64,000 bases of DNA. Source: Prosthecobacter sp. (GTDB taxonomy: Bacteria; Verrucomicrobiota; Verrucomicrobiia; Verrucomicrobiales; Verrucomicrobiaceae). This document shows, one piece after another, positions 10,071-24,243 of the stretch. Below the pieces are notes generated by a model that was given only the letters and a program-made list of their open reading frames with translations, ran no database searches and was not told the DNA's origin. Position 1 is the stretch's first letter, and the number at the start of each line of letters is the position of its first letter. The stretch covers positions 1 through 64,000 of the forward strand of contig JAURHS010000004.1 of NCBI GenBank assembly GCA_030833205.1, given 5' to 3'. Both the position numbers and the translations under genes were made by a program.

Positions 10071-13000
10071 ATGAGAACCCCGACTTTTCTTGGCCTGCTC
10101 AGCCTCTGCCTCCTCAGCCCCTTGTGTGCCAAGCCCCAATGGATTTGGAGCGCTGCGGGTGGCAACAAGGACAAGGAAGTGATTTTCAAGCGACAATTCA
10201 AGGTGCCGGCAGGGGCAGGAAAGATCATCTTGGATCTCACCTGTGACAACGGCGCCGATGCCCTGATCAACGGCAAGAAGGTCCTGAGCAATCCGGACTG
10301 GCAGCAGCCCTCCTCGGCGGACATCACGGGTCTGCTCCGCAAGGATGGAGTCAACGAGATCGTGGTGCAGGCGCGCAACAAGGGCGGAGTGGCTGCCCTG
10401 GTGGCAAGACTCAAGGCTCAAAGCGGCAAAGGACAACCCGAGGTCTTTCTTGAAACCGATGCGCAGTGGCAGGTGGCTTCCAAAGGCAGCCAGGCCTTTG
10501 CTCCTGCCACCATCATTGAGCCCTACGGCAAGGGTCCGTGGGGGCTTGCCCTGGACAAGCCCGGTGGTGGTGGTGCTGCTGAGAGTGGGGATTCCCTGGC
10601 GGCTGATGAAATCGGTGTGGCCAAGGGCTTCAAGGTGGAGAAACTCTACAATGTGCCCAAGGCCGAGCAGGGCTCCTGGGTGGCGCTGTGTGCGGATGAC
10701 AAGGGACGCCTGATTGCCTGTGATCAATACGGCGCGCTTTACCGCATGAGCGTGCCGGCTCTTGGCAGCAAGGCGGGTTTGCAACCGCAGCGTCTCGAGG
10801 TGGAGTTGGGCAAGGCCCACGGCTTGCTGCATGCCTTCGGCAGTCTGTATGTGATGGTCAATGAGGACGGCAAGAACAACGGCTTGTACCGCCTGCGCGA
10901 CAGCGATGGCAACGACAGCTATGACAAGGTGGACAAACTCCTGACCATGCAGGGTGGGGGAGAGCACGGCCTGCACAGCATGGTGCTCAGCCCCGATGGC
11001 AAGCGCATCTATTTCAACTGCGGCAACCACAGCAAGCTGCCCGAGGGCATCAAGGAAAGCCGCGCGCCCATGATCTGGGGCGAGGACCACATCGTGCCGC
11101 GCCTCTGGGATGCCAATGGCCATGCCCGCGGCATTTTGGCTCCAGGCGGCTACATCTGCAGCATGCTGCCCGATGGCGCAGACCTTGAGTTGTTCTGCTA
11201 CGGCTTCCGCAATGAGTTCGACATTTGCTTCGATCTGGGCGGCAGTTTGTTCACCTACGACGCCGACATGGAGTGGGACATTGGCACGCCTTGGTATCGC
11301 CCCACCCGCGTGAATCATTGCGTCAGCGGCGCGGACTACGGCTGGCGCAGTGGCAGTGGCAAGTGGCCCAATGGCTACCCAGATTCCCTGCCCACCACCC
11401 TGGACATCGGCCCCGGCAGCCCCACGGGTGTCGTCAGTGGCAAGGGGGCCAAGTTCCCCGCGAAGTACCAGCGCGCGGTCTTCATCAACGATTGGACCTA
11501 CGGCACCATGTGGGCCATTCACCTCCAACCCAAGGGGGGAAGCTATGTGGCGCAGAAGGAAGAGTTCGTGTTCGGCAAACCCTTGCCGCTGACCGACCTG
11601 ATCATCCACCCCCAGGACGGAGCCATGTACTTCGCCGTTGGCGGTCGTCGCACCCAGTCTGGGATTTACCGCGTGACTTATGCTGGCGACGAATCCACGG
11701 CTGCCGCTCAGCCTCTGCCCTTGGATGAGGAGTTCCGCATGCGCGAGGCCTTGGAGGCCTTCCATCGTCCTGGCAGTGACCTGAAGGCCGGTGTGCAGCA
11801 GGCCTTCTCCTATCTTGGTCATAGCGACCGTCATGTGCGCTACGCGGCGCGCGTCATCCTCGAGAAGGCTCCCTTGGAGTTGTGGCGCGACAAGGCACTG
11901 GCGCTGACCCAGCCTGCTGCGAAGATCGAGGCCCTGGTTGCCCTGGCGCGCGTCAGCCGCAAGGCCACGGCAGTGCAGGAAGGCGGCAAGCCCAAGAGCA
12001 AGCCAAGCACCACCTCCTCAGAGGCAGTCGGTCCTGTCGCTGCCGATCAGGTAGGCCTTCAAAAGGAATTGCTGGCCGCCTGGAACACCCTGCCTTGGGA
12101 CAAGCTCAACGCTGGTCAGCAGATGGCGGCCGTGCGCGCCCTGCAGCTGATTGTGATTCGCCTCGGCAAGCCAGGTCCTGAGACCTGCGCCGAGGTATGC
12201 AGTTGGATTGAGCCGCACTACCCCAGCAAGGATGTGGGCCTCAATCGCGAGCTCTGCGGCCTGCTCTCCACCCTGGAGAGCAAGAAGGTGCCTGCGCTTA
12301 CCCTGGGTCTGATGGCCACGGCGGCAGATGATTTTGTGGATGTGGCCAGCGATGCCGTGCTCTCCCGCAACGAGGGCTATGCCAACGCTGCCCGCGCCGC
12401 CGCTGGCAGCCGGCCCAATGCGCAGCAGATCGCGTACATGTACAACCTTCGCGACAGCAAGGCGGGTTGGACCCCGGAGCTGCGTCGCACTTACTTCTCC
12501 TGGTTTGCCCGCGCCCGCACCTGGAAGGGTGGCAACAGCTTCAAGGGATTCATCGAGAACATCCGCAAGGACGCCATGGGCAGCTTCGTGCCTGAAGCCG
12601 AGCGCGCCGAACTTGAAGCCTTGGGCACCAGACAGGAGCCTGTGGTGGCCGCCGCCAATTATGTGGCGCCGAAGGGACCGGGCCGGGCCTGGAGTTTGGA
12701 TGAGTCGCTGGCCACTCTGGGTGAGGGACTCAAGGGCCGTAATTTTGCCCAAGGCGAGGCCATGTACCGCAGCACCATGTGCGCCACCTGTCACCGCTTC
12801 AACGGCGAGGGCGGCAGCATTGGCCCCGACCTGACGGGCAGCGGCAATCGTTACACCCTGCGCGACTTGATGGAAAACATCATTGACCCCAGCCGTGTCA
12901 TCTCCGACCAGTACGACAGCCACGAAATCCGCAAGAAGGATGGCAGCCAGATCTTGGGCCGCATCGTGGTCGAGGAAAACGGCAAGGTCTTCGTGATGAC

Positions 13001-13199
13001 CAATCCCTTCGCGCCTGCGGATCTTGCCGCCATCAATGAGTCTGAGATTGCAGAAAAGCAGACCCGCAAGGTCAGCATGATGCCCCCGGGACTGATCAAC
13101 TCCCTCAATGCCGATGAACTCAAGGATCTGGTGGCCTACCTGCTCAGCGGCGGCAATCCCTCAGATTCAAGGTTTTCGCCATCATCTGGCAAGCCCTGA
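10071..13199 (+). CDS. PVC-type membrane-bound dehydrogenase/heme-binding domain protein (TIGR02604/TIGR02603-like) with c-type cytochrome
   Basis: Signal peptide; beta-propeller region (CYGFRNEFDICFD...TYDADMEWDIGTPWYRPTRVNHCVSGADYGWRSG); C-terminal MYRSTMCATCHRFNGEGGSIGPDLTGSG and ENIIDPSRVISDQYDSHEI. Confidence 0.85.
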   Translation: MRTPTFLGLLSLCLLSPLCAKPQWIWSAAGGNKDKEVIFKRQFKVPAGAGKIILDLTCDNGADALINGKKVLSNPDWQQPSSADITGLLRKDGVNEIVVQARNKGGVAALVARLKAQSGKGQPEVFLETDAQWQVASKGSQAFAPATIIEPYGKGPWGLALDKPGGGGAAESGDSLAADEIGVAKGFKVEKLYNVPKAEQGSWVALCADDKGRLIACDQYGALYRMSVPALGSKAGLQPQRLEVELGKAHGLLHAFGSLYVMVNEDGKNNGLYRLRDSDGNDSYDKVDKLLTMQGGGEHGLHSMVLSPDGKRIYFNCGNHSKLPEGIKESRAPMIWGEDHIVPRLWDANGHARGILAPGGYICSMLPDGADLELFCYGFRNEFDICFDLGGSLFTYDADMEWDIGTPWYRPTRVNHCVSGADYGWRSGSGKWPNGYPDSLPTTLDIGPGSPTGVVSGKGAKFPAKYQRAVFINDWTYGTMWAIHLQPKGGSYVAQKEEFVFGKPLPLTDLIIHPQDGAMYFAVGGRRTQSGIYRVTYAGDESTAAAQPLPLDEEFRMREALEAFHRPGSDLKAGVQQAFSYLGHSDRHVRYAARVILEKAPLELWRDKALALTQPAAKIEALVALARVSRKATAVQEGGKPKSKPSTTSSEAVGPVAADQVGLQKELLAAWNTLPWDKLNAGQQMAAVRALQLIVIRLGKPGPETCAEVCSWIEPHYPSKDVGLNRELCGLLSTLESKKVPALTLGLMATAADDFVDVASDAVLSRNEGYANAARAAAGSRPNAQQIAYMYNLRDSKAGWTPELRRTYFSWFARARTWKGGNSFKGFIENIRKDAMGSFVPEAERAELEALGTRQEPVVAAANYVAPKGPGRAWSLDESLATLGEGLKGRNFAQGEAMYRSTMCATCHRFNGEGGSIGPDLTGSGNRYTLRDLMENIIDPSRVISDQYDSHEIRKKDGSQILGRIVVEENGKVFVMTNPFAPADLAAINESEIAEKQTRKVSMMPPGLINSLNADELKDLVAYLLSGGNPSDSRFSPSSGKP

Positions 13200-13209
13200 G
13201 GCCGCGATC

Positions 13210-13230
13210 CAGCCAGCGAGTTTCTGGCTG
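13210..13230. terminator. Hairpin downstream of the heme-binding gene
   Basis: cagccag-cgagttt-ctggctg, perfect 7-bp stem just 3' of the stop codon. Confidence 0.45.
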
Positions 13231-13282
13231 ACAATATCTTGCTTCCCATCCGAGGCGATTTGCGTCTAAGCTCCGCCGCCGA

Positions 13283-14740
13283 ATGAATCCTCTCCTGCGC
13301 ACCAAGCCTCTCGAACAACTTCACGCCGAAGCCAATAGCAGCAGTCATGGACTGCGTCGGGTGCTGGGACGATACCATCTCATTGCCTTGGGCATTGGCG
13401 CGGTCATTGGCACGGGGATCTTCGTGTTGACCGGTCATGCCGCGGCCGACTTCTCCGGCCCTGCGGTGGCCCTGTCTTATATCCTCTCCGGTCTGGGTTG
13501 TTTGTTTGCCGGTCTTTGTTACGCCGAATACGCTGCAGCACTGCCCATCGCCGGCAGCGCCTACACCTACACCTACGCCACCCTGGGCGAGTTCATGGCC
13601 TGGATCATCGGTTGGGATCTGATCCTGGAGTATCTCTTCGCCGCCTCCACGGTGGCCGTGGGTTGGTCCAAGCACTTCATTCCCTTCATGAAGGACTTCT
13701 TCGGTGTGGAGTTGCCTGCCAACTGGTGCAAGGCGCCACTGGATTATGTGGGGGGCCAGATCATTCACACCAGCCACTATGTGAACATCCCGGCCATGGT
13801 GCTGGTGTGGGCGGTGACGGCGTTGTTGGTGGTTGGCATTCGCGAGAGTGCTCGCTTCAACAACATCATGGTGGCCGTCAAGTTGACCATCATCCTGCTC
13901 ATCATTGGTCTGGGCTGGGGTTACATCAATTGGGATAACCTCACGCCCTTTGTGCCCGAGAATACGGGCACGCCGGGTCAGTACGGCTGGAGCGGGGTGC
14001 TCAAGGGTGCAGGGGTGATCTTCTTTGCCTACATTGGTTTTGATGCCGTTTCCACCGCAGCGCAGGAAACCCGCAATCCGCAGAAGGACATGTTTTGGGG
14101 GATGATCGGCTCGCTGTTGATTTGTGGGCTGTTGTTTGTCGGCGTGTCCATCGTGCTCTGCGGCATGGTGCCCTACAAGGAATTGCATGTGGATGCCCCG
14201 GTGGTCTATGCTCTTGAAAAGGTTGCCGGCGACAGCCTCAAGTGGCTGCGCATGTCGGTGGAGATTGCGGTGCTTGCGGGGCTAAGCTCGGTGATTCTGG
14301 TGCTGCTGATGGGCCAACCGCGCATTTTCTTCTCCATGGCCCGCGATGGCTTGCTGCCGAAGTCCTTTGCCAAGATTCATCCCAAGTACGGCACGCCGCA
14401 CATCACCACCATCGTGACTGGTCTTTTGTGCTCACTGCTTGCCGGTTTTCTGCCCCTCAACCTTCTGGGTGAGTTGGTGTCGATTGGCACCTTGATGGCC
14501 TTCACGGTGATTTGCATCGGGGTGATTGTGCTGCGCCGCACCAAGCCTGACATGCCCAGGCCCTACCGCACACCATGGGTGCCATGGTTGCCCATCGCAG
14601 GTGCCATCATCTGCATGGCGCAGACCGTGCTCCTGCCCTCTGACACCTGGTGGCGTCTCGTCATCTGGATGGCCTTGGGTGTGGTGGTGTACTTCGCCTA
14701 CGGCCGCAGGCACAGCCGCCTCAATCACCCCCAAGCCTGA
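13283..14740 (+). CDS. APC-family amino acid permease
   Basis: LGRYHLIALGIGAVIGTGIFVLTG; about 12 hydrophobic segments; IGFDAVSTAAQETRNPQKD. Confidence 0.92.
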   Translation: MNPLLRTKPLEQLHAEANSSSHGLRRVLGRYHLIALGIGAVIGTGIFVLTGHAAADFSGPAVALSYILSGLGCLFAGLCYAEYAAALPIAGSAYTYTYATLGEFMAWIIGWDLILEYLFAASTVAVGWSKHFIPFMKDFFGVELPANWCKAPLDYVGGQIIHTSHYVNIPAMVLVWAVTALLVVGIRESARFNNIMVAVKLTIILLIIGLGWGYINWDNLTPFVPENTGTPGQYGWSGVLKGAGVIFFAYIGFDAVSTAAQETRNPQKDMFWGMIGSLLICGLLFVGVSIVLCGMVPYKELHVDAPVVYALEKVAGDSLKWLRMSVEIAVLAGLSSVILVLLMGQPRIFFSMARDGLLPKSFAKIHPKYGTPHITTIVTGLLCSLLAGFLPLNLLGELVSIGTLMAFTVICIGVIVLRRTKPDMPRPYRTPWVPWLPIAGAIICMAQTVLLPSDTWWRLVIWMALGVVVYFAYGRRHSRLNHPQA

Positions 14741-14889
14741 TCGGCAGCGGTGCAGCTGTGGCGCCCACGCCTACATCGTGAGGGCAGGGGATGTGAATTG
14801 AGCAGAAAAAAGTTTGTTCAGCGCTAGAGCCAACTCTTGAATAGAGCTGCTATCTTTTGCCCATTCCAAGCGTACTGATTCCCACCGCC

Positions 14890-16347
14890 GTGAAATTCAA
14901 ATGTCCCTCCTGTGAGATGCAGCTGATGGCCGAGCCAGAGTTGGCCGGCAAAATCGTTCGCTGCCCTGGTTGCAACAACAAGGTGTCCATTCCCGCCGCC
15001 GAGGCTGGTGCGGGGTTGCCGCCGCCCTCAGGGTTGCCAACACCCTCTGGCCTTCCTCCGCCAAGCGCTGCAGGAGACAATTGGGGTCGCGACGGTGAGA
15101 CCTCAGCGCCAGAGGAGCCGATGGCTCTAGGAGTGGCCCATGAGAGCTCGCACCCTTCGCGCTCAGCCCGTGGAGGTTGGGAGGAAAAGGACCCTGCCAA
15201 CCCCAACGCATTTTCAGCGCTGCTGATTGGCGGCCTGCTGACCTTGGCTTGGTACGCTGTCCTGTTTCCGCTTGGCCAGGGCAAGTACAATGCGCCTTCG
15301 GTGTCTGCCCTGGATTACATCCATGACTTGTTCTACGAGCGAACATGGGTCAACTACATGGAGACCTTCTTCTTCTTTTGGGCGGTGGGTATCCTTTACC
15401 TCAAGCTGCAGAAGCTTCGGCAACAGAAGGCGGCCATGTACCTTGATGTCCTTCCCACGGACATCAACAACGAGGTCAACCCCGAGAATGTCGGGCTGTT
15501 CATTGATCATCTTTACGGATTGCCGGCGCGACTGCGTGACAGCATGATGGTCAACCGCATCCGCAAGGGCCTGGAGTTGTTCGAGATCCGCCAGAACAAC
15601 GGTGATGTGAACAACATGCTCAGCGCGCAAAGCAGCATTGACAGCGCGCGTGTGGGCGGCTCCTACGCTCTGACCAAGGTCTTTCTGTGGGCGATTCCCA
15701 TTCTTGGTTTCATCGGCACCGTGCTGGGCTTGTCTCAGGCCATCGGCAGCATGGATCTTTCCAATGTTTCTGACATGGACAAGATCATGGCTTCGATTGG
15801 CAATGTCACCAGCGGCCTTGGTACCGCCTTTGACACCACGCTGTTGGGTCTGGTGTTGGCGATGTTCCTGAACTTCCCGATGAATGTCCTCTCCAAGGCT
15901 GAGGACGACAACCTCAACAACATCGACGCCTTCTGCAATGAGGTGCTTCTGCCCCGGCTCAATGACGGTGGCGCTGGCTCGGCTGCAGTGGGTGGTGAAG
16001 GTGGCGGTTTGATGGAGAATCTGGTCAAGGCGGTGGCCTTGTCACAGAAGGAGTTTCTCACCGACCTCAATGCCCTCTCCTCGAAGATTCTGGAGCAGGC
16101 CCACAATCTGGACCGCAGGGCTGAGGCTCATCAGCAGCATGTGGATGCGGAGTTTGGCAAGTCGGTTGAACGCATGCGCCATGACTTCACCACGGCAGTG
16201 ACCGATGCGGTCAAGCAGAGCGTTGAGTACAATCGCGCGCTGGCCAGCGGCATTCAGGGGCTCAATCAGGTTCTCAAGGAGCTGGGTTCCAAGCAGATCC
16301 TGATTCATCAGGTCAAGAAGAAGGGCTGGTTCAGTCGCGCCGAGTAG
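14890..16347 (+). CDS. MotA/TolQ/ExbB-like proton channel protein with N-terminal zinc ribbon and C-terminal coiled coil
   Basis: N-terminal FKCPSCEMQLMAEPELAGKIVRCPGCNNKVSIP; channel signature AIPILGFIGTVLGLSQAIG...LGTAFDTTLLGLVLAMFLNFP; GTG start inferred. Confidence 0.85.
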   Translation: MKFKCPSCEMQLMAEPELAGKIVRCPGCNNKVSIPAAEAGAGLPPPSGLPTPSGLPPPSAAGDNWGRDGETSAPEEPMALGVAHESSHPSRSARGGWEEKDPANPNAFSALLIGGLLTLAWYAVLFPLGQGKYNAPSVSALDYIHDLFYERTWVNYMETFFFFWAVGILYLKLQKLRQQKAAMYLDVLPTDINNEVNPENVGLFIDHLYGLPARLRDSMMVNRIRKGLELFEIRQNNGDVNNMLSAQSSIDSARVGGSYALTKVFLWAIPILGFIGTVLGLSQAIGSMDLSNVSDMDKIMASIGNVTSGLGTAFDTTLLGLVLAMFLNFPMNVLSKAEDDNLNNIDAFCNEVLLPRLNDGGAGSAAVGGEGGGLMENLVKAVALSQKEFLTDLNALSSKILEQAHNLDRRAEAHQQHVDAEFGKSVERMRHDFTTAVTDAVKQSVEYNRALASGIQGLNQVLKELGSKQILIHQVKKKGWFSRAE

Positions 16348-16374: not shown

Positions 16375-17274
16375 ATGGCCGAGCGCCGATCATCCTCAGG
16401 CAACGAAGTCTCGTTGTTCCCCTTCCTCAGCATTCTGGCTTGTCTGATCGGCGCGCTGGTTCTGATCATCGTGGTGCTTGTGCTGGCGCAGGCAGACAAG
16501 GCCGGGGGGCGGACCAGGGAGGAATTGCAGCGTGCTCAGGAGTTTGTTCGACTGGAGCGCGAACTGCAGCAGCGCGTCAAGGATGATGCAGTGGTCAAAA
16601 AGAAGCTCGAGGAGTTGCTAAAACTTCAGAAGGACCTGCAGGAACAGCAGCAACGCTTTCTTCAGTTCCGCAAACTGGTGACCAGCTCAAAGGAGGTGCA
16701 GCGGCAGAATCAGCAGATTGCCGATGATCTCAAGAAGCAGTTGGACGATCTGCTCTTGGAGATCGAGGGCATCATCAAGCAACAGGCTGAGACTCGCGCT
16801 GAGGTTGCCAAGTTGATGGAGGAAATCAAAAACAGGGGAATCAAGTCCAAGGAGGTTCCTCCGGTGGTGGTGCAGCCTGGGGGCTCTGGTCTGCCTGAGG
16901 GGACAAGGGTGTTTTTCGTGGAGTGCAGCAGTGGTGCTCTGCGCATTCTTGAAGCCTGGGACAAGCAGGAGAGTTATCGCCTCGCCGCCAACCCCTCGGT
17001 GGTGGTGGCGGATGTGGCCTACAACCATTTGCTCTCTCAGTTGGCTGCGGATTCCAAGAGCCTCCTGCTTTTTCTGGTTCGCGATGATGGACAGGGAGCC
17101 TTCATCAACGGCGCAGGCAGGGCGGGGGAGTGGGGGGCTCGCTTTGGCAAGTTGCCCATCCCAGGCCGTGGAGAATTGGATCTTCAGTATTTTGCAAAGC
17201 TCCGCGGCAAGGTGCCGCCTCCCCCTCCGCCAACTTCGCCTCCGCCGGCTCCGCCGGTCAAACCCTCCACCTAG
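16375..17274 (+). CDS. Single-TM coiled-coil protein, ExbD/MotB-like, lacking the TM Asp
   Basis: NEVSLFPFLSILACLIGALVLIIVVLVLAQ TM segment near the N-terminus, then heptad-rich region (EELQRAQEFVRLERELQQRVKDD...), Pro-rich C-terminus. Confidence 0.7.
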   Translation: MAERRSSSGNEVSLFPFLSILACLIGALVLIIVVLVLAQADKAGGRTREELQRAQEFVRLERELQQRVKDDAVVKKKLEELLKLQKDLQEQQQRFLQFRKLVTSSKEVQRQNQQIADDLKKQLDDLLLEIEGIIKQQAETRAEVAKLMEEIKNRGIKSKEVPPVVVQPGGSGLPEGTRVFFVECSSGALRILEAWDKQESYRLAANPSVVVADVAYNHLLSQLAADSKSLLLFLVRDDGQGAFINGAGRAGEWGARFGKLPIPGRGELDLQYFAKLRGKVPPPPPPTSPPPAPPVKPST

Positions 17275-17277
17275 CCC

Positions 17278-18837
17278 ATGGCCAAGCGCAACGATTCTGG
17301 CGATTCGGAGTTGAATCTCGACTCCCTCATGGACGCGGTCACCAATGTGGTGGGCGTGCTGATGATTGTGTTCGTCATGATGGCGCTGAATACGGCGCGG
17401 ACTTTGCAGAAGGTGCTCTCTGAGCTCCCCAATGTCACAGAGGAGCAGTTGAAGGCCAAGCAGCAGGAGGCGGCAAAGATGCCCCCTCCACCCGCTGACC
17501 CCTTGCAGGTGCAAAAAGATCGTGAAAAGGCGGAGCAGGATTTGAAAAAGGTCGCACAAGATCTCAAGACCATTGACACCAGCGAGGTCGAGAAGCTCAC
17601 CAAGTTCATGGATTTGGAGAAATTTAGGAAGGAGTTGGAGAAGGCTCGAAAGGACCGGGAATCCCAGCGCAGCGCCTTGGAAAAGTTGTTCGACGAATTG
17701 GAAAAAGTGAAGGCGCTCTTGGCCAAAACGCCAGAGCCTGTGGCCAAGCCGCCCTCAGTGGTGCGGATGCCAAACCCAAGGCCTTTCCCCGAGGGCGCAG
17801 TGGAGACTCGGGTCATGGTGGCTGCAGGAGGGGTGGTATTTTTCAATCAGCAGGAGTTTTTGACGCCCTTGCTTGAAGGTTTGCAGAAGGCCAAGGCGCA
17901 GTTCGCCTATCGCGAGGTCAAGATTGATCCCTTTGCCAAGATGCTGCAGGAGGTCTATGGCAATGCCAATGCCGCCCGCGCCGCCTGGCCGCTGATTGCG
18001 GAGTTTGCTCCGACCTTCCAGCTCGATCAGGTGGCGTTGGCGCACAAGGTGCTTGCAGCGGGAGGTCTCACGGTAAGCAAGGGGCTACTGGAGGCCGTCG
18101 GCAATCTCTCATTGGTGACGCGCGCCACCATGCCGACGGTTGCCGAGGCGATCGTGGCCCTTGCCAAGGGGGATTCCACGCGTTGGAAGGCATTGGACCC
18201 GAGCCGCGACCCAGCCAAACCCATCATTACGGTCAACAGCAGCGGCGGCAAGCTGCAGCTTGGATGGGGCTCGTCCATCGCAGAGATGCGGCAAACGCCG
18301 AAGGATGTGGCGGACTATTTTGCCAAGACACTGGGTGACATTGCCTCAATCAAGAAGGCCTCGGAAACCCGCGAGATTGTGGACGCCTTCAAGTTGGTCG
18401 AGGTGCTGGAGCGGGCGGCGGCAAGCCCGATGATGAAATCCGCCTCCATGCGCATTGCGCCAAAGCTGAGGCCTGGGACCACCTCGGTGGTTCTTGATCT
18501 CTCTCCTCAGGGAGGCAATAGTACTGCGGCTCGTGCCCAGTTCGCTGACCCCTCAGCGCCTCTGCAGCGCCAGTTGCGTCAAATCAAGGCCGACGCGAAG
18601 GGTGTGGCCGTCTTTCAGGTCATGAAGGACGCCTTTGAGACCTACCTCGATGCCCGCCGCATCGCCGATGAGATTGGGGTTCCGGCGACTTGGGAGTTCC
18701 TGACCCAACTGGAGTTGACTCTGACTCTGCCAGGCTTTGAGGTGCAACGGTTTGCCGTGGCGCCCCCGCCAGCCAAACCCCTGCCTCCGGGTACGACGCC
18801 GGTGAGAATCGCGCCCCCGAAGCGCACACTGGATTGA
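17278..18837 (+). CDS. Single-TM coiled-coil protein, ExbD/MotB-like, with TM-entry Asp
   Basis: SELNLDSLMDAVTNVVGVLMIVFVMMALNTART, then a long coiled-coil-like segment; starts 4 bp after the preceding stop. Confidence 0.72.
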   Translation: MAKRNDSGDSELNLDSLMDAVTNVVGVLMIVFVMMALNTARTLQKVLSELPNVTEEQLKAKQQEAAKMPPPPADPLQVQKDREKAEQDLKKVAQDLKTIDTSEVEKLTKFMDLEKFRKELEKARKDRESQRSALEKLFDELEKVKALLAKTPEPVAKPPSVVRMPNPRPFPEGAVETRVMVAAGGVVFFNQQEFLTPLLEGLQKAKAQFAYREVKIDPFAKMLQEVYGNANAARAAWPLIAEFAPTFQLDQVALAHKVLAAGGLTVSKGLLEAVGNLSLVTRATMPTVAEAIVALAKGDSTRWKALDPSRDPAKPIITVNSSGGKLQLGWGSSIAEMRQTPKDVADYFAKTLGDIASIKKASETREIVDAFKLVEVLERAAASPMMKSASMRIAPKLRPGTTSVVLDLSPQGGNSTAARAQFADPSAPLQRQLRQIKADAKGVAVFQVMKDAFETYLDARRIADEIGVPATWEFLTQLELTLTLPGFEVQRFAVAPPPAKPLPPGTTPVRIAPPKRTLD

Positions 18838-18943: not shown

Positions 18944-19438
18944 ATGTCTCTCGCTGTCGGTTCACCCGCCCCTGACTTTACTCTCTGCACCCTTGGGGCC
19001 AATGGCCCTGAGTTGTTCAAGCTCAGTGAGCATTTGGGCGCTGGCAATCTCCTGCTGCTGTTTGTGCCCATGGCCTTTACGGGAGTTTGCACCAAGGAGT
19101 TTTGTGAGATCTCCAATCAGATCAACGAGTACACCTCGCTCAACGCCAAGGTGGTTGGCATCAGCGGCGACAATCCCTTTGCGCAGAAGGCTTGGGCTGA
19201 GAAGGAAAAGATCACCCTCACCCTGCTCAGCGATTATGATCACAAGGTGACTGAGGCCTTTGGGGTTGCCTACGAGTCATTCCTTCCAGCCAAGAACCTG
19301 ATCATGGGCGGTGTCCCCAAGCGCTCGGCCTTTGTGATTGATTCCAAGGGTGTGGTGCAGTACGCCGAGGTTCTGGAGAGCCCAGGAGATCTGCCAAACT
19401 TTGAGGCGATCAAGGCCAAGCTTGCCGAGTTGGCCTGA
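18944..19438 (+). CDS. Peroxiredoxin (AhpC/TSA, redoxin family)
   Basis: LFVPMAFTGVCTKEFCEISNQINEY; VVGISGDNPFAQKAWAEK. Confidence 0.9.
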   Translation: MSLAVGSPAPDFTLCTLGANGPELFKLSEHLGAGNLLLLFVPMAFTGVCTKEFCEISNQINEYTSLNAKVVGISGDNPFAQKAWAEKEKITLTLLSDYDHKVTEAFGVAYESFLPAKNLIMGGVPKRSAFVIDSKGVVQYAEVLESPGDLPNFEAIKAKLAELA

Positions 19439-19460
19439 GTTGTTGGTTCGGCTTTGTTTT

Positions 19461-19490
19461 GGGGGCTTCCTTCGGGAGGCCCCCTTTTTT
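19461..19490 (+). terminator. Rho-independent terminator of the peroxiredoxin gene
   Basis: gggggcttcc-ttcg-ggaggccccc followed by tttttt; 10-bp stem with UUCG tetraloop. Confidence 0.92.
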
Positions 19491-19517
19491 GTGGGGTGAG
19501 GATCCAAGGTCCCAAAC

Positions 19518-20351
19518 TCAGGCGCGGGCCATGTAGCGCAGAACCGAGGCGATTTTGGCGCGCATGTCCTTGCGCTGAACGATCATGTCCACCAAGCCAT
19601 GCTGCATCATGAACTCCGCCGTTTGGAAGCCAGGCGGCAGGTCAGCATGCGTGGTTTCCTTGACCACGCGGGGCCCTGCAAAACCGATCATGCACTTGGG
19701 TTCGGCGAGGATGAGATCGCCCAGGGTGGCAAAGCTTGCCGTGACTCCGCCAGTGGTGGGGTGAGTCAGTACAGAGAGATAGGGGAGCTTGGCTTGGGCG
19801 TGGCGCGCCAGTGCTGCACTGCTCTTGGCCATCTGCATGAGACTGAGGATGCCCTCGTGCATGCGCGCTCCACCAGAGGCGGAAAAGACGATCACGGGTT
19901 TGCCCTCCGCCGTGGCGGTTTCGATGGCGCGGGTGATTTTCTCGCCAACAACGCTGCCCATGGAGGCTCCAAGAAAGCGGAAGTCCATGATGGCCAGGAG
20001 CACAGGGATTGTCTCGATGGTAGCGCGCCCGGTGAGCACGGCGTCCTTCAGGCCTGTCTTGGCCTGATAGGCCTTTACCTTGTCGAGATAGCCCTTGAAG
20101 CCAAGAGGGTTGATGGAGTCGAGATCGCCATCAATCTCCTGAAAACTGCCCTCGTCGATGAGGCTTTCGAGACGCTCGGTGCTGCTGATGGTGAAGTGGT
20201 AACTGCAGTGTGGGCAGACGCGAAGGTTGCGTGCCAAAGCCTGTTCGAAGAGGCTCTCATTGCAGGATGGGCACTTGGTCCACAGCCCCTCGGGCATGTC
20301 CTTTTTCTTCTCGCCGAGATCGCTGACGCTGCGCTTTTTGAAAAATCCCAT
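19518..20351 (-). CDS. accD: Acetyl-CoA carboxylase carboxyltransferase subunit beta
   Basis: Zn finger CPSCNESLFEQALARNLRVCPHC; VFSASGGARMHEGILSLMQMAK; VLTHPTTGGVTASFA. Confidence 0.95.
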   Translation of the reverse strand: MGFFKKRSVSDLGEKKKDMPEGLWTKCPSCNESLFEQALARNLRVCPHCSYHFTISSTERLESLIDEGSFQEIDGDLDSINPLGFKGYLDKVKAYQAKTGLKDAVLTGRATIETIPVLLAIMDFRFLGASMGSVVGEKITRAIETATAEGKPVIVFSASGGARMHEGILSLMQMAKSSAALARHAQAKLPYLSVLTHPTTGGVTASFATLGDLILAEPKCMIGFAGPRVVKETTHADLPPGFQTAEFMMQHGLVDMIVQRKDMRAKIASVLRYMARA

Positions 20352-20487
20352 GGTGATGACTTTGCGGCCTGACCTGTGACGGACGCTGAACGCTCCCTCG
20401 GATTGGCAAACCGCAGGGCGGCTGGGCACCCGCCCAAGCCTTGAGTCCAGTGACCCGCCACGAGGGCCGAGCCTAAGAGACTTCATT

Positions 20488-21252
20488 CTAGCCTCGTGCG
20501 GCGCAGATGACCACCACTTTTTGCGCCCCAGCCTGCAGGAGCGCTTCGGTGCATGCCTCGGCAGTGGCACCCGTGGTCAGCACATCGTCAACGAGTATAA
20601 TGGATTTATTTTCAATCCTTTGAGTGCACTTTATTTTTCCGCGCAGGTTGGTTTTGCGCTGCTGGCGGTTGAGGCCAACCTGATTGACAAGGCCATGCCG
20701 CCTTCGCAGTGCCCCCCGCAAGAATGGCAACCCGGAGCGGAGGCTAAGCTGCAGGGCCAGCTCGTGGCTTTGATTGAAGCCGCGCTGCCATTGGCGGATC
20801 GGGCTTAGCGGGCAGGCGACAATGCTGCAGGGGCGATCTTGGGTGAGCGCGCGCAGTCTTGGATCCTCCAGACAGCGGATCAGTCCGTCAGAGAGCAGAC
20901 GAGCCAGATTGCGCTGGCGGCCATATTTGAATTGGTGGATGAGATCGCGCCAGGAACCCGAGGCACGGTAGCCGGCGAGGGCGAAGTCGTAGGCTGGAGG
21001 GCTGGCAAGGCAGTTGCCGCATGGCAGGTGTGAGGGCCCGTGGCTCTGCAGCGGTTCGGCACAGCGGGGGCAGAAGGGGGGCTGCAGTGGCTCCAGTTCG
21101 CCAGCACAGGCGTTGCAGAGCCAATGCTTGGGTTGATGGGGGTTGCGTGAGCGCTCGGGCAGCCAAGCCTCACAGCAGCGGCAGCGTTGGGGAAGCAGCC
21201 ATTCCATGAACTGCTCGAAAGGCCCAGGGGGTACCATGTCCGGAGACTGCAT
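20488..21252 (-). CDS. ComF family phosphoribosyltransferase-like protein
   Basis: N-terminal Cys clusters (CRCCEAW, CNACAGELEPLQPPFCPRCAEPL); PRPP loop ILVDDVLTTGATAEAC. Confidence 0.9.
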   Translation of the reverse strand: MQSPDMVPPGPFEQFMEWLLPQRCRCCEAWLPERSRNPHQPKHWLCNACAGELEPLQPPFCPRCAEPLQSHGPSHLPCGNCLASPPAYDFALAGYRASGSWRDLIHQFKYGRQRNLARLLSDGLIRCLEDPRLRALTQDRPCSIVACPLSPIRQWQRGFNQSHELALQLSLRSGLPFLRGALRRRHGLVNQVGLNRQQRKTNLRGKIKCTQRIENKSIILVDDVLTTGATAEACTEALLQAGAQKVVVICAARG

Positions 21253-21338
21253 CTTGCCGGCAGGGATGAACCAGATTCGGCGCTTTGGGAAGTCGCAACC
21301 TGTCTGGCGCGGCGTGGCAACGCAGCAGCCCTGAGAAT

Positions 21339-22208
21339 TCAATTCCAACGACCCGCAGCAAGATCCGCAGTGAGGTCAGGATTTTCGACGAATGCGGACC
21401 CGAAGGTCAAGGCATCGGCATGAATGCCTCCGTGCTCGAGATTGGGGCTTCGCTTGCCTCGCGATTGGCGAGCGGGTAGCGCCAGAGGGCAGCGCATGGA
21501 GTCTGTCCACTGCCGCAGCGGACCCTCCCATGGCCGAATCAAATCCATGCCACAGACCACTCGAATCCAGGCCAAGTGGTCTGCCGCAAGGCTTCGAAGC
21601 ACCTGCAGACCGGCCAAATTGCCTGTCAATGGCTGGTTGAGATTGATGCGCACCGCGAGGCGACCGCTGCCGGTGGCCTCCATGGCCAGCGGCAGAAGGT
21701 TTTCCAGCTCGCGACTGCGCCTCAGCCAAGATTGCGGGATCAGCCATTCAACAGCTTCGAATCCCAACTCTCTGCCGAGCCGCGCCACATTGGAGAGATC
21801 GCGGGCCCAGGCCAGAGCCTCCTGTCCGCGCTGGGTGGTGTCGGGGGCCCAGAGTTGCAGAGCAACCCTGCCTCCCTGTTCCCTGACTCCCTTGGCAAGA
21901 GCGCGCCAAGAGTTCAGCGGCATTTCCTCACAGAGCCTTGGCTCACGGCTCCTGAGGCCGCTTCCTACCCCAGCCAGCACGGGTTCAGTGATCATCAGCC
22001 CGGCGCTGCAGCGGCGCAGGTAAAATTCCAGCATGCCGTCGGCGGGCGCGCCCTGCTCATCGGCGCGACAGGCGCCGATACCACCGAGCCAGACTCGATT
22101 GGCCAGCCTCAGAGCCCCTGCGCGCATCGGTTCAAACAGACCAACCCTAGCCCCTGCATGTGGGGTAACTTTCTGGGCTGCCTCTGGGTAATCAATCGGC
22201 GGGATCAT
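21339..22208 (-). CDS. Old Yellow Enzyme-like TIM-barrel protein, apparently lacking the catalytic HxxN segment
   Basis: LFEPMRAGALRLANRVWLGGIGACRADEQGAPADGMLEFYLRRCSAGLMITE and ADALTFGSAFVENPDLTADL match OYE ends; middle region shortened. Alternative start at 22253. Confidence 0.68.
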   Translation of the reverse strand: MIPPIDYPEAAQKVTPHAGARVGLFEPMRAGALRLANRVWLGGIGACRADEQGAPADGMLEFYLRRCSAGLMITEPVLAGVGSGLRSREPRLCEEMPLNSWRALAKGVREQGGRVALQLWAPDTTQRGQEALAWARDLSNVARLGRELGFEAVEWLIPQSWLRRSRELENLLPLAMEATGSGRLAVRINLNQPLTGNLAGLQVLRSLAADHLAWIRVVCGMDLIRPWEGPLRQWTDSMRCPLALPARQSRGKRSPNLEHGGIHADALTFGSAFVENPDLTADLAAGRWN

Positions 22209-22277
22209 GATCTTGATGGTTCCATTTACGGGTAACCCAATGGGTGGAATCATCCAATGAGAAAGGATTACTGTGCT

Positions 22278-22294
22278 GATAACTTGCGGTTATC
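22278..22294. promoter_or_regulatory. Candidate LysR operator in the divergent intergenic region
   Basis: Perfect inverted repeat GATAAC-ttgcg-GTTATC (contains T-N11-A), 29 bp upstream of the LysR ATG. Confidence 0.55.
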
Positions 22295-22323
22295 GCCGAT
22301 CGAGCCCTAGAATGCTGTCGTTC

Positions 22324-23223
22324 ATGGATCTCAACCAGCTGAAGTACTTTGTGGAGCTCTCCCGGGAGCTTCACTTCTCGCGCGCCGCGAAGCTTCTCCA
22401 CATCACACAACCGGCGCTGAGTCGGCAGATCTCGAATCTGGAGAGGGAATTGGGCGTAAGCTTGTTCGAGCGCGGTCCACGGGCGGTGAGGCTCACTGAG
22501 GCGGGCCAGTTCCTGCAGCCGAAGGCCGTGGCCATCCTGATGGCATGCCGGCAGACCAGCGAGGAATTGAGGATTCAATTTGGTGGCAACCAGCGGCCCC
22601 TGCAAATGGGTTTCCTGAGTGTGTTGCTTGATGATTTGGTGGCGCCCTCGATTCGCAGCTGTCGCCTCCGTCACCCGCGCCTAAGAGTGCAGCTTCACGA
22701 GCTCAGCCCAAGCCAGCAGATGGAGAAGCTGGCTGCCGGGGAGTTGGATCTGGCGGTGCTGGGGAACATCAATGAGCAGGATCGCCGGCTCTACAGGGTT
22801 CGCCGCTTGAGTTACCATCCCATGGCTGCCGTCGTCAGCGAGGATCATCCCCTGAGCCAGGCGAAAAACATTCACCTCGCGCAGTTGGCCAAGGAGCCAT
22901 GGATCTCGTTGGATGAGGGCCTGTTCCCCGGGCGTCGCGAATTTCTTCGCAAGGCCTGTCGCGCTGCGGGCTTTGAGCCCTTGATTGCGGCGGAGTTGGA
23001 GAGTCTGAATTTATTGCTGGCTGCGGTGAGTTCAGGGGAGGGGGTTGCGATCCTGCCCCGACACTCCTCAAAGCTGTCCCACCGGGGCTGCGTCTTCCTT
23101 CCGCTCCAGGCGCCCGTGCCGAAGGCCGAACTGCTGCTATTGCTGCGGCTCGAGGAAAAGCGGCCGGAGGCCGAGGCCATCGCCGTGGAGTTGGAGGCGC
23201 GGGCCCGCGAGGTGATGCGCTAG
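22324..23223 (+). CDS. LysR-family transcriptional regulator
   Basis: MDLNQLKYFVELSRELHFSRAAKLLHITQPALSRQISNLERELGVSLFER. Confidence 0.95.
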   Translation: MDLNQLKYFVELSRELHFSRAAKLLHITQPALSRQISNLERELGVSLFERGPRAVRLTEAGQFLQPKAVAILMACRQTSEELRIQFGGNQRPLQMGFLSVLLDDLVAPSIRSCRLRHPRLRVQLHELSPSQQMEKLAAGELDLAVLGNINEQDRRLYRVRRLSYHPMAAVVSEDHPLSQAKNIHLAQLAKEPWISLDEGLFPGRREFLRKACRAAGFEPLIAAELESLNLLLAAVSSGEGVAILPRHSSKLSHRGCVFLPLQAPVPKAELLLLLRLEEKRPEAEAIAVELEARAREVMR

Positions 23224-23280
23224 AGTTTTGATGTTGCGGCCAAGCGGGTTTGCGTTGCGTGTGCGGCGCTTTTGGCTCTT

Positions 23281-24243
23281 ATGAGCAGGCCTGTCATGGC
23301 ATTACCCGATCCACATCTTCGACCCGTTCGCCCCGGCGGTAGCGAGCAGGCCAGCTTCCCCTCCTTGGCCGAGCTTGCCTTGCTTTTGCCCCAGTATGAA
23401 ATGGAGCAGGTCATTGGCGTGGGTGGCATGGGAGCCATCTACAAGGCTCGCCACCGCGCCCTTGGGCGCAGCGTCGCCATCAAGGTGTTGCCTCAGGAGT
23501 CCTCGGATCAGCCCGAGGAGATTGAGCGTTTCATCAAGGAGGCCCGCGCCATGGCCAAGCTCAAGCATCCGCAAATCGTGACGGTATTTGACTTTGGGCA
23601 GACCGCGCAGCGTCACCTGTATCTGGTGATGGAGTTTGTGGATGGTCTTGATCTTCACCGTCGGATTCGTTTCCGCGAGCTCAACACAGAGCGCATTTTC
23701 TCGATTGTGGACCAACTCTGCGATGCCCTGCAGTTTGCCCATGCCCAGGGAGTGATTCATCGCGACATCAAGCCCGCGAACATCCTCATCAGCTCGGATT
23801 GGCGCGTCAAGGTGGTGGACTTTGGTTTGGCTCGCGAGATCTCTCTGCAGGGTGCAGGTCAGGAGGTTGAGTATGGAACTCCAGATTACACCTCACCCGA
23901 GCGGCTCATTCTCGGCGCTGCGGTGGACCATCGAGCTGACATTTACGCGCTGGGCGTGTTGATTCACGAGATGTTCACCGGCCACACCACGACCGCTGCG
24001 CAACCAGAGGACGGAGCATTGTTGCCAGGTGGCGTTGCCGCCGTGATCGCCCGCTGCACGGCAGAAGACCCCGATCAACGCTTCGGCAGTGCGATGGAAG
24101 TCAAGACGGCGCTGTTTTCGCCGGCCCCTAGCACCCGCACGGTGGTGAGGGTTGCGGGTTCAAGCTGCGCTGCGGCGATGAAAAAAACCACACTGGCCGC
24201 GCGGGCTGCTGCGTTTTTGCGTGGCTTTCGGGCCCGTCGGTAG
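23281..24243 (+). CDS. Serine/threonine protein kinase (Hanks type)
   Basis: IGVGGMGAIYKARHRALGRSVAIKVL; VIHRDIKPANILI; VVDFGLAREI; YTSPERL. Confidence 0.93.
   Translation: MSRPVMALPDPHLRPVRPGGSEQASFPSLAELALLLPQYEMEQVIGVGGMGAIYKARHRALGRSVAIKVLPQESSDQPEEIERFIKEARAMAKLKHPQIVTVFDFGQTAQRHLYLVMEFVDGLDLHRRIRFRELNTERIFSIVDQLCDALQFAHAQGVIHRDIKPANILISSDWRVKVVDFGLAREISLQGAGQEVEYGTPDYTSPERLILGAAVDHRADIYALGVLIHEMFTGHTTTAAQPEDGALLPGGVAAVIARCTAEDPDQRFGSAMEVKTALFSPAPSTRTVVRVAGSSCAAAMKKTTLAARAAAFLRGFRARR

Follow-up and report, generated by a model that had tools for sequence, protein, structure and literature searches.

The window analysed here, a stretch of 64,000 nucleotides of Prosthecobacter DNA, contains three neighbouring genes on the + strand that form an operon in the order A (14857-16347), B1 (16375-17274) and B2 (17278-18837). 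The A subunit is a MotA/TolQ/ExbB-type channel protein with an N-terminal zinc ribbon and a cytoplasmic C-terminal coil. It scores 43.4 bits against the Pfam model MotA_ExbB (PF01618), above the curated cut-off of 22.9, and its best PDB matches of relevance are the sodium-driven PomA chains 8brd/8bri. The gene is likely to start at GTG 14890 (VKFKC...) rather than at the annotatable TTG at 14857, since its relatives begin there with [VM]KFKC and the window reads VKFKCPSC. Read by eye, the flanks of the operon (10071-14740 and 18944-24243) appear to encode a large PVC-type cytochrome c / dehydrogenase, an amino-acid permease, a peroxiredoxin, AccD, a ComF-like protein, a LysR regulator and a Ser/Thr kinase. 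The flanking genes are not common to the relatives of the operon, suggesting that the motor operon stands alone. A conventional ExbB is encoded in the same genome as well, along with a pair of ExbD proteins that each bear the transmembrane Asp (IAPMIDVLL and IAPMIDVVF), so that even in this organism the ordinary state is an Asp pair.

B1 (299 aa) has a single transmembrane (TM) segment, EVSLFPFLSILACLIGALVLIIVVLVL, followed by a long coil and a periplasmic alpha/beta domain, and B2 (519 aa) has a single TM segment, ELNLDSLMDAVTNVVGVLMIVFVMM, followed by a coil and periplasmic domains with an inserted helical region. The earlier note on this DNA had observed that the first protein carries Ser and the second Asp in the TM segment, and both residues were read correctly: B1 has Ser19 (codon AGC, 16429-16431, + strand) in the Asp position and B2 has Asp19 (GAC, 17332-17334, + strand), which is invariant in 74 of 74 aligned homologues. 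That note covered 16375-17420, a span which begins with B1 and ends about 140 bases into B2, and it left out the upstream MotA-type partner, the Asp-bearing relatives of B1 and a further acidic residue of B2, Asp15 (17320-17322, + strand), located one helical turn before Asp19. In a profile-profile comparison with hhalign (75 B1 against 74 B2 sequences), the two families match with a probability of 98.7% and an E value of 2.6e-16, their TM segments align without a gap, and S19 pairs with D19 as G26 does with G26. Ser in B1 therefore genuinely occupies the Asp position, and by this comparison B1 and B2 are distant paralogues in register.

The AlphaFold single-chain model of B1 (mean pLDDT 87) combines a TM helix with a coil roughly 100 residues long and an alpha/beta domain. 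As modelled, the periplasmic fold appears TolR-like, although the top PDB match of the fold search, the periplasmic domain of TolR (5by4), is weak (E 4.8e-3, probability 0.97), with none at E <= 0.001. The periplasmic region of B2 is larger than that of B1, and its fold search returned nothing convincing, with TolR at rank 19 (E 0.77). An insert of about 150 aa, helical, lies in the periplasmic part of B2 in the window and its nearest relatives and is absent in genomes G237, G066 and G219, whose proteins have 364-381 aa. The Pfam ExbD model (PF02472) matches neither B1 nor B2 of the window, and among the 75 B1 relatives it is matched weakly by four (best E 0.012). Scans of B1 and B2 with Pfam, NCBIfam and PADLOC yielded weak matches, none reaching a curated cut-off and many involving coiled-coil families, and PDB sequence searches with the B1 and B2 profiles found chiefly coiled-coil and chance matches.

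Relatives of the A subunit were found in 69 of the 291 sampled genomes of the phylum. Within the window's family a good A match is present in 64 of 68 genomes, and in 45 of the 47 that are complete and clean, with essentially one copy per genome (G323 gives two matches, which represent the halves of a single gene). These counts make the operon a near-universal single-copy locus of the family. A collection scan added 80 loci from Prosthecobacter, Verrucomicrobium, Brevifollis and other verrucomicrobial genomes, and the order A-B1-B2 is retained in nearly all relatives where it is readable.

Sequence alignments of 86 family relatives reveal that position 19 of B1 has two states and no third: Ser in 32 and Asp in 54. 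Ser19 is invariant in 32 of 32 Ser-type relatives, while D19 of B2 is constant in both types. The state of B1 is matched by that of B2. Ser-type B1 pairs with a B2 reading [NS][LMF]DSLMD in 30 of 30 readable loci (for example NLDSLMD), and Asp-type B1 pairs with PFVALMD in 50 of 50, so that Asp15 of B2 is Asp in all of the former and Val in all of the latter. There is no mismatch in the 80 loci with both genes readable, and none in a second, partly overlapping set of 17 Ser-type and 29 Asp-type loci. The A subunit follows, with four strict markers in Ser versus Asp type (R162/H, E169/N, V275/A and T327/A). Glu169 (15361-15363, + strand; Asn in the Asp type) occurs in 32 of 32 Ser-type A subunits. 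Altogether 146 of 404 core columns differ between the types. The type-separating columns lie at 6-27 of B1, 8-38 of B2 and 114-327 of A, almost all of them in or beside the membrane part, and the A tail and the periplasmic parts contain none. Because Ser is invariant in its type and fully linked to the partner states, its presence in B1 is more than chance. In one genome, G271, B1 and B2 lie on different contigs (L051 and L161), yet both are Asp-type. The same open reading frame (MTESPKKLIKVTIEPRKNNRAKCSCCGK...) follows B1 at one of these places and adjoins B2 at the other, a pattern that a mobile element might leave on splitting the operon.

These findings preserve one part of what the earlier note proposed and alter another. 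In one form of the motor the Ser/Asp asymmetry is genuine, conserved and of ancient origin, but Ser is not fixed in the family, where 54 of 86 B1 proteins, including some from the same genus, carry Asp. The note had held that common Asp or Glu in homologues of the first subunit would speak against its reading; Asp is indeed common there, but it marks a distinct, alternative form and is not noise. The interpretation given in the note is partly supported, and it would be better recast as a motor core that is co-inherited in two states than as a fixed single-Asp heterodimer. High-quality genomes within one genus have a single copy each, of either Ser or Asp type. We also considered whether the two forms could be coexisting, mutually converting paralogues, a possibility ruled out by the one copy per genome.

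Distant relatives in other classes likewise retain the order A-B1-B2, with different B1 sequences. In one distant clade both B subunits bear Asp (FQDII with LLLDTMCN), and position -4 of B2 is Glu or Asp, which indicates that an acid at this position is not simply compensation for a missing Asp in B1. In these double-Asp loci (L058-L069, L073, L074) a fourth gene is often found downstream, encoding one N-terminal TM segment and a Gly-rich stretch, a possible force transducer, and some have a GYF_2-like protein upstream. Another distant clade shows Cys, Ser or Ala in B1 (TDFSSFMCVI) with LDSFLD in B2, and its A subunit also has Glu at the position of E169. Glu169 and a B1 without the acid thus coincide in this clade too, although one Ser-type relative, L056, is without Glu. 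This clade (L063-L065, L070, L078-L080) is possibly an independent asymmetric motor.

The trees of the membrane parts and of the outer parts of the same genes give very different histories. Type changes once on the tree of the A core, once on that of the B1 TM segment and once on that of the B2 TM segment, whereas 12 changes are needed for the A tail, 11 for the B1 periplasmic part and 17 for the B2 periplasmic part. On combined trees the core requires one change and the periphery 13, all 13 of them forced by well supported branches. Nor is type related to species kinship, since an rpoB tree of 40 genomes requires 11 type changes and 281 of 500 label shuffles perform no worse. For example, G201 (Ser) and G189 (Asp) are sisters within the window's genus. 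Between the sister genomes G329 (Ser) and G307 (Asp), whose rpoB genes are 96.9% identical, DNA identity is about 55-65% in the cores and 75-90% in most outer parts, whereas the same-type pair G320/G307, at equal rpoB distance, mostly shows 90-100% throughout. The most economical reading of these counts is that there are two ancient core haplotypes, in which the membrane parts of the three proteins have to fit one another, with recombination exchanging the outer parts between the haplotypes. Convergence is disfavoured, because up to 146 of 404 core columns would need to change jointly many times. When the diagnostic columns are removed, the core tree still has only three changes with 258 columns and four with 200, reaching 12 only at 144, which favours shared ancestry of the cores without proving it. 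Third codon and synonymous sites are saturated and cannot separate recombination from convergence, and an A-subunit tree rooted on ExbB paralogues, which has long branches and does not resolve the deep ones, gave no indication of which form is ancestral.

Known motors of this class have the composition A5:B2, with Asp on both axle helices. Like TolQR, ExbBD and MotAB, the operon has an A subunit of the MotA_ExbB family with the GxxGT...TxxG pore motif and B subunits with a single N-terminal TM helix, and its B1 may have a TolR-like periplasmic domain. The Asp a few residues into the TM helix is found in 74 of 74 B2 and in Asp-form B1 but not in Ser-form B1. The window's family differs from those 5:2 motors in having two different B genes, one of them without Asp in the Ser form, long coils, a zinc ribbon on A and two interchangeable core forms. 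The AglR-AglQ-AglS gliding motor of Myxococcus also combines one A gene with two B genes. However, both AglQ and AglS are described with a conserved Asp, where B1 of the window has Ser, and whether they form heterodimers or homodimers is given as unknown (PMC9389320); the two systems are compared here by description. Pairs of different tolR-like genes adjoining a tolQ-like gene were noted in 2025 in the same group of phyla (PMC12204202). That system belongs to the same phylum group as the window operon and, like it, joins a tolQ-like gene to two different tolR-like ones; beside the window operon no vWA or TPR gene was recognised by eye. Neither a partner lacking the Asp nor a pair of exchangeable cores is mentioned in the passages searched in one open-access library. 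The sodium-driven flagellar stator PomAB resembles the Ser form in that the equivalents of T158, T185 and T186 are all present in Ser-form A, but its PomB homodimer has Asp in both copies and the window operon has no flagellar link. The A subunit is also weakly similar to ZorA models of the Zorya system (31.8 bits against an NCBIfam cut-off of 100; ZorB match E 0.046; PADLOC matches partial). Unlike Zorya, the locus is near-universal and single-copy in the family rather than patchy as a defence system would be.

Taken together, the sequence comparisons suggest that the operon quite probably encodes one ion-driven inner-membrane motor, in which a pentamer of A surrounds an axle of B1 and B2 and which exists in two matched core forms. 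The indirect evidence for a single complex of A, B1 and B2 is strong: B1 and B2 are almost certainly together, because their membrane segments and that of A switch type only jointly. Other arrangements have to be weighed against this one. If B1 and B2 each made a separate homodimer motor with a common A subunit, as AglQ and AglS could in theory each pair with AglR (PMC9389320), the B1 homodimer of the Ser form would lack a TM carboxylate at the site. The three proteins, moreover, never mix types, B1 and B2 changing form only jointly even in G271, where B2 is unlinked. Obligate physical partners would behave in this way, and separate homodimers are very improbable. An axle made of a B2 homodimer within the A pentamer, with B1 placed outside like TonB or TolA, would render the B1 Ser irrelevant to the ion cycle. 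The absence of Asp from the window's B1 fits this arrangement, as do side-binding transducers described for this motor class (PMC12204202). Nevertheless, B1 aligns in register with the pore helix of B2, and in Asp-form B1 the Asp is likewise present, set between ExbD-like flanks. Four B1 members give weak matches to Pfam ExbD, and the diagnostic changes of B1 lie around position 19 and vary in concert with residues of the A pore, so we regard a B1 outside the ring as unlikely.

Similar considerations apply to explanations of the Ser/Asp pattern itself. Neutral decay of a redundant site might seem suggested by the Cys, Ser or Ala found at the B1 site in a distant clade, but it is hard to reconcile with a family that is strictly Ser in one form (32 of 32) and ties that Ser to 146 of 404 core columns, and we give it very little credence. 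Many loci come from metagenome-assembled genomes with close relatives in the sample, a setting in which chimeric assembly could produce mosaics. The mosaic recurs at least 11 times, however, with the three cores matched each time, and genomes of good quality are among the cases: G189, G192 and G201 (all of one genus and 99% complete), Brevifollis gellanilyticus NBRC 108608 (L109, Asp form) and Verrucomicrobium sp. BvORR034 and BvORR106 (L119, L122), which makes an artefact exceedingly improbable. A more serious, if still doubtful, proposal is that the core types differ in their ion, the Ser form being sodium-driven and the Asp form proton-driven, so that Ser or Asp in B1 would be part of an ion-selectivity module and not primarily a matter of site number. 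T158, T185 and T186 of PomA are conserved in all sodium stators, and proton-driven MotA has Ala at 158 and 185 (PMC10374538). By profile alignment to 8brd, Ser-form A has all three: Thr288 in GFIGTVLG (15718-15720, + strand), which aligns with T158 and is kept in both types, and Thr327-Thr328 (15835-15840, + strand), which align with T185-T186 and are Thr-Thr in all Ser-type A subunits and Ala-Thr in the Asp type. Asp-form A thus reads T/A/T at these positions, like the ExbB-type paralogues of the same genome. On the other hand, both forms have Leu at the site equivalent to PomA A190 (332 here), nearer to the Ile of proton stators, and the distant clade with Asp in both B subunits is likewise Thr-Thr.

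For a motor with a mixed B1-B2 axle, we propose the following mechanism. The A pentamer would enclose one B1 and one B2 helix (5:1:1), and the long coils would carry both B subunits into the periplasm, where they may serve an envelope function. In the Asp form each axle helix would contribute one ion-site carboxylate. The Ser form is most likely a heteromeric axle with one mid-membrane carboxylate, in which B1 would have lost or never had its own, B2 would have kept Asp19 with a further Asp one turn lower, and the form-specific Glu169 and Thr327 would lie in the A ring. The turnstile model has 36-degree steps and 10 ions per turn (PMC9389320). Under this model the single mid-membrane site of the Ser form would be used once per passage of an A subunit, so that a full turn would take 5 ions in steps of 72 degrees rather than 10 in steps of 36, and Asp15 of B2 might act as a cytoplasmic hand-over site for Asp19. 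Such a five-ion cycle, or an Asp15-Asp19 hand-over, appears to be the likeliest consequence of the Ser form. The idea of a single protonatable subunit, as the earlier note put it, is nevertheless too simple, for Ser-form B2 has both D15 and D19, A has its own Glu169, and these two additional acids, B2 D15 and A E169, could restore a second site; the coupling ion, moreover, may be other than H+.

A bolder reading, which we hold to be less likely than not, is that the locus encodes a single-site heteromeric rotary motor (5 ions, 72-degree steps) as one of two interchangeable matched cores at a near-universal single-copy locus, with cores that possibly differ in ion and may be kept across species like a balanced two-allele system. 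It is unusual for a motor core to remain matched across three genes when recombination reshuffles the outer regions of those very genes, and the missing mixed combinations constitute evolutionary evidence for an A-B1-B2 complex. For mutagenesis, the diagnostic residues of the three proteins mark out pore positions to target, one of which follows sodium selectivity in PomA. As natural matched motor pairs from close relatives, the two forms bear on whether a 5:2 motor needs both axle Asp residues, and on 10 versus 5 ions per turn, and they would offer in this family a natural test of how such motors turn.
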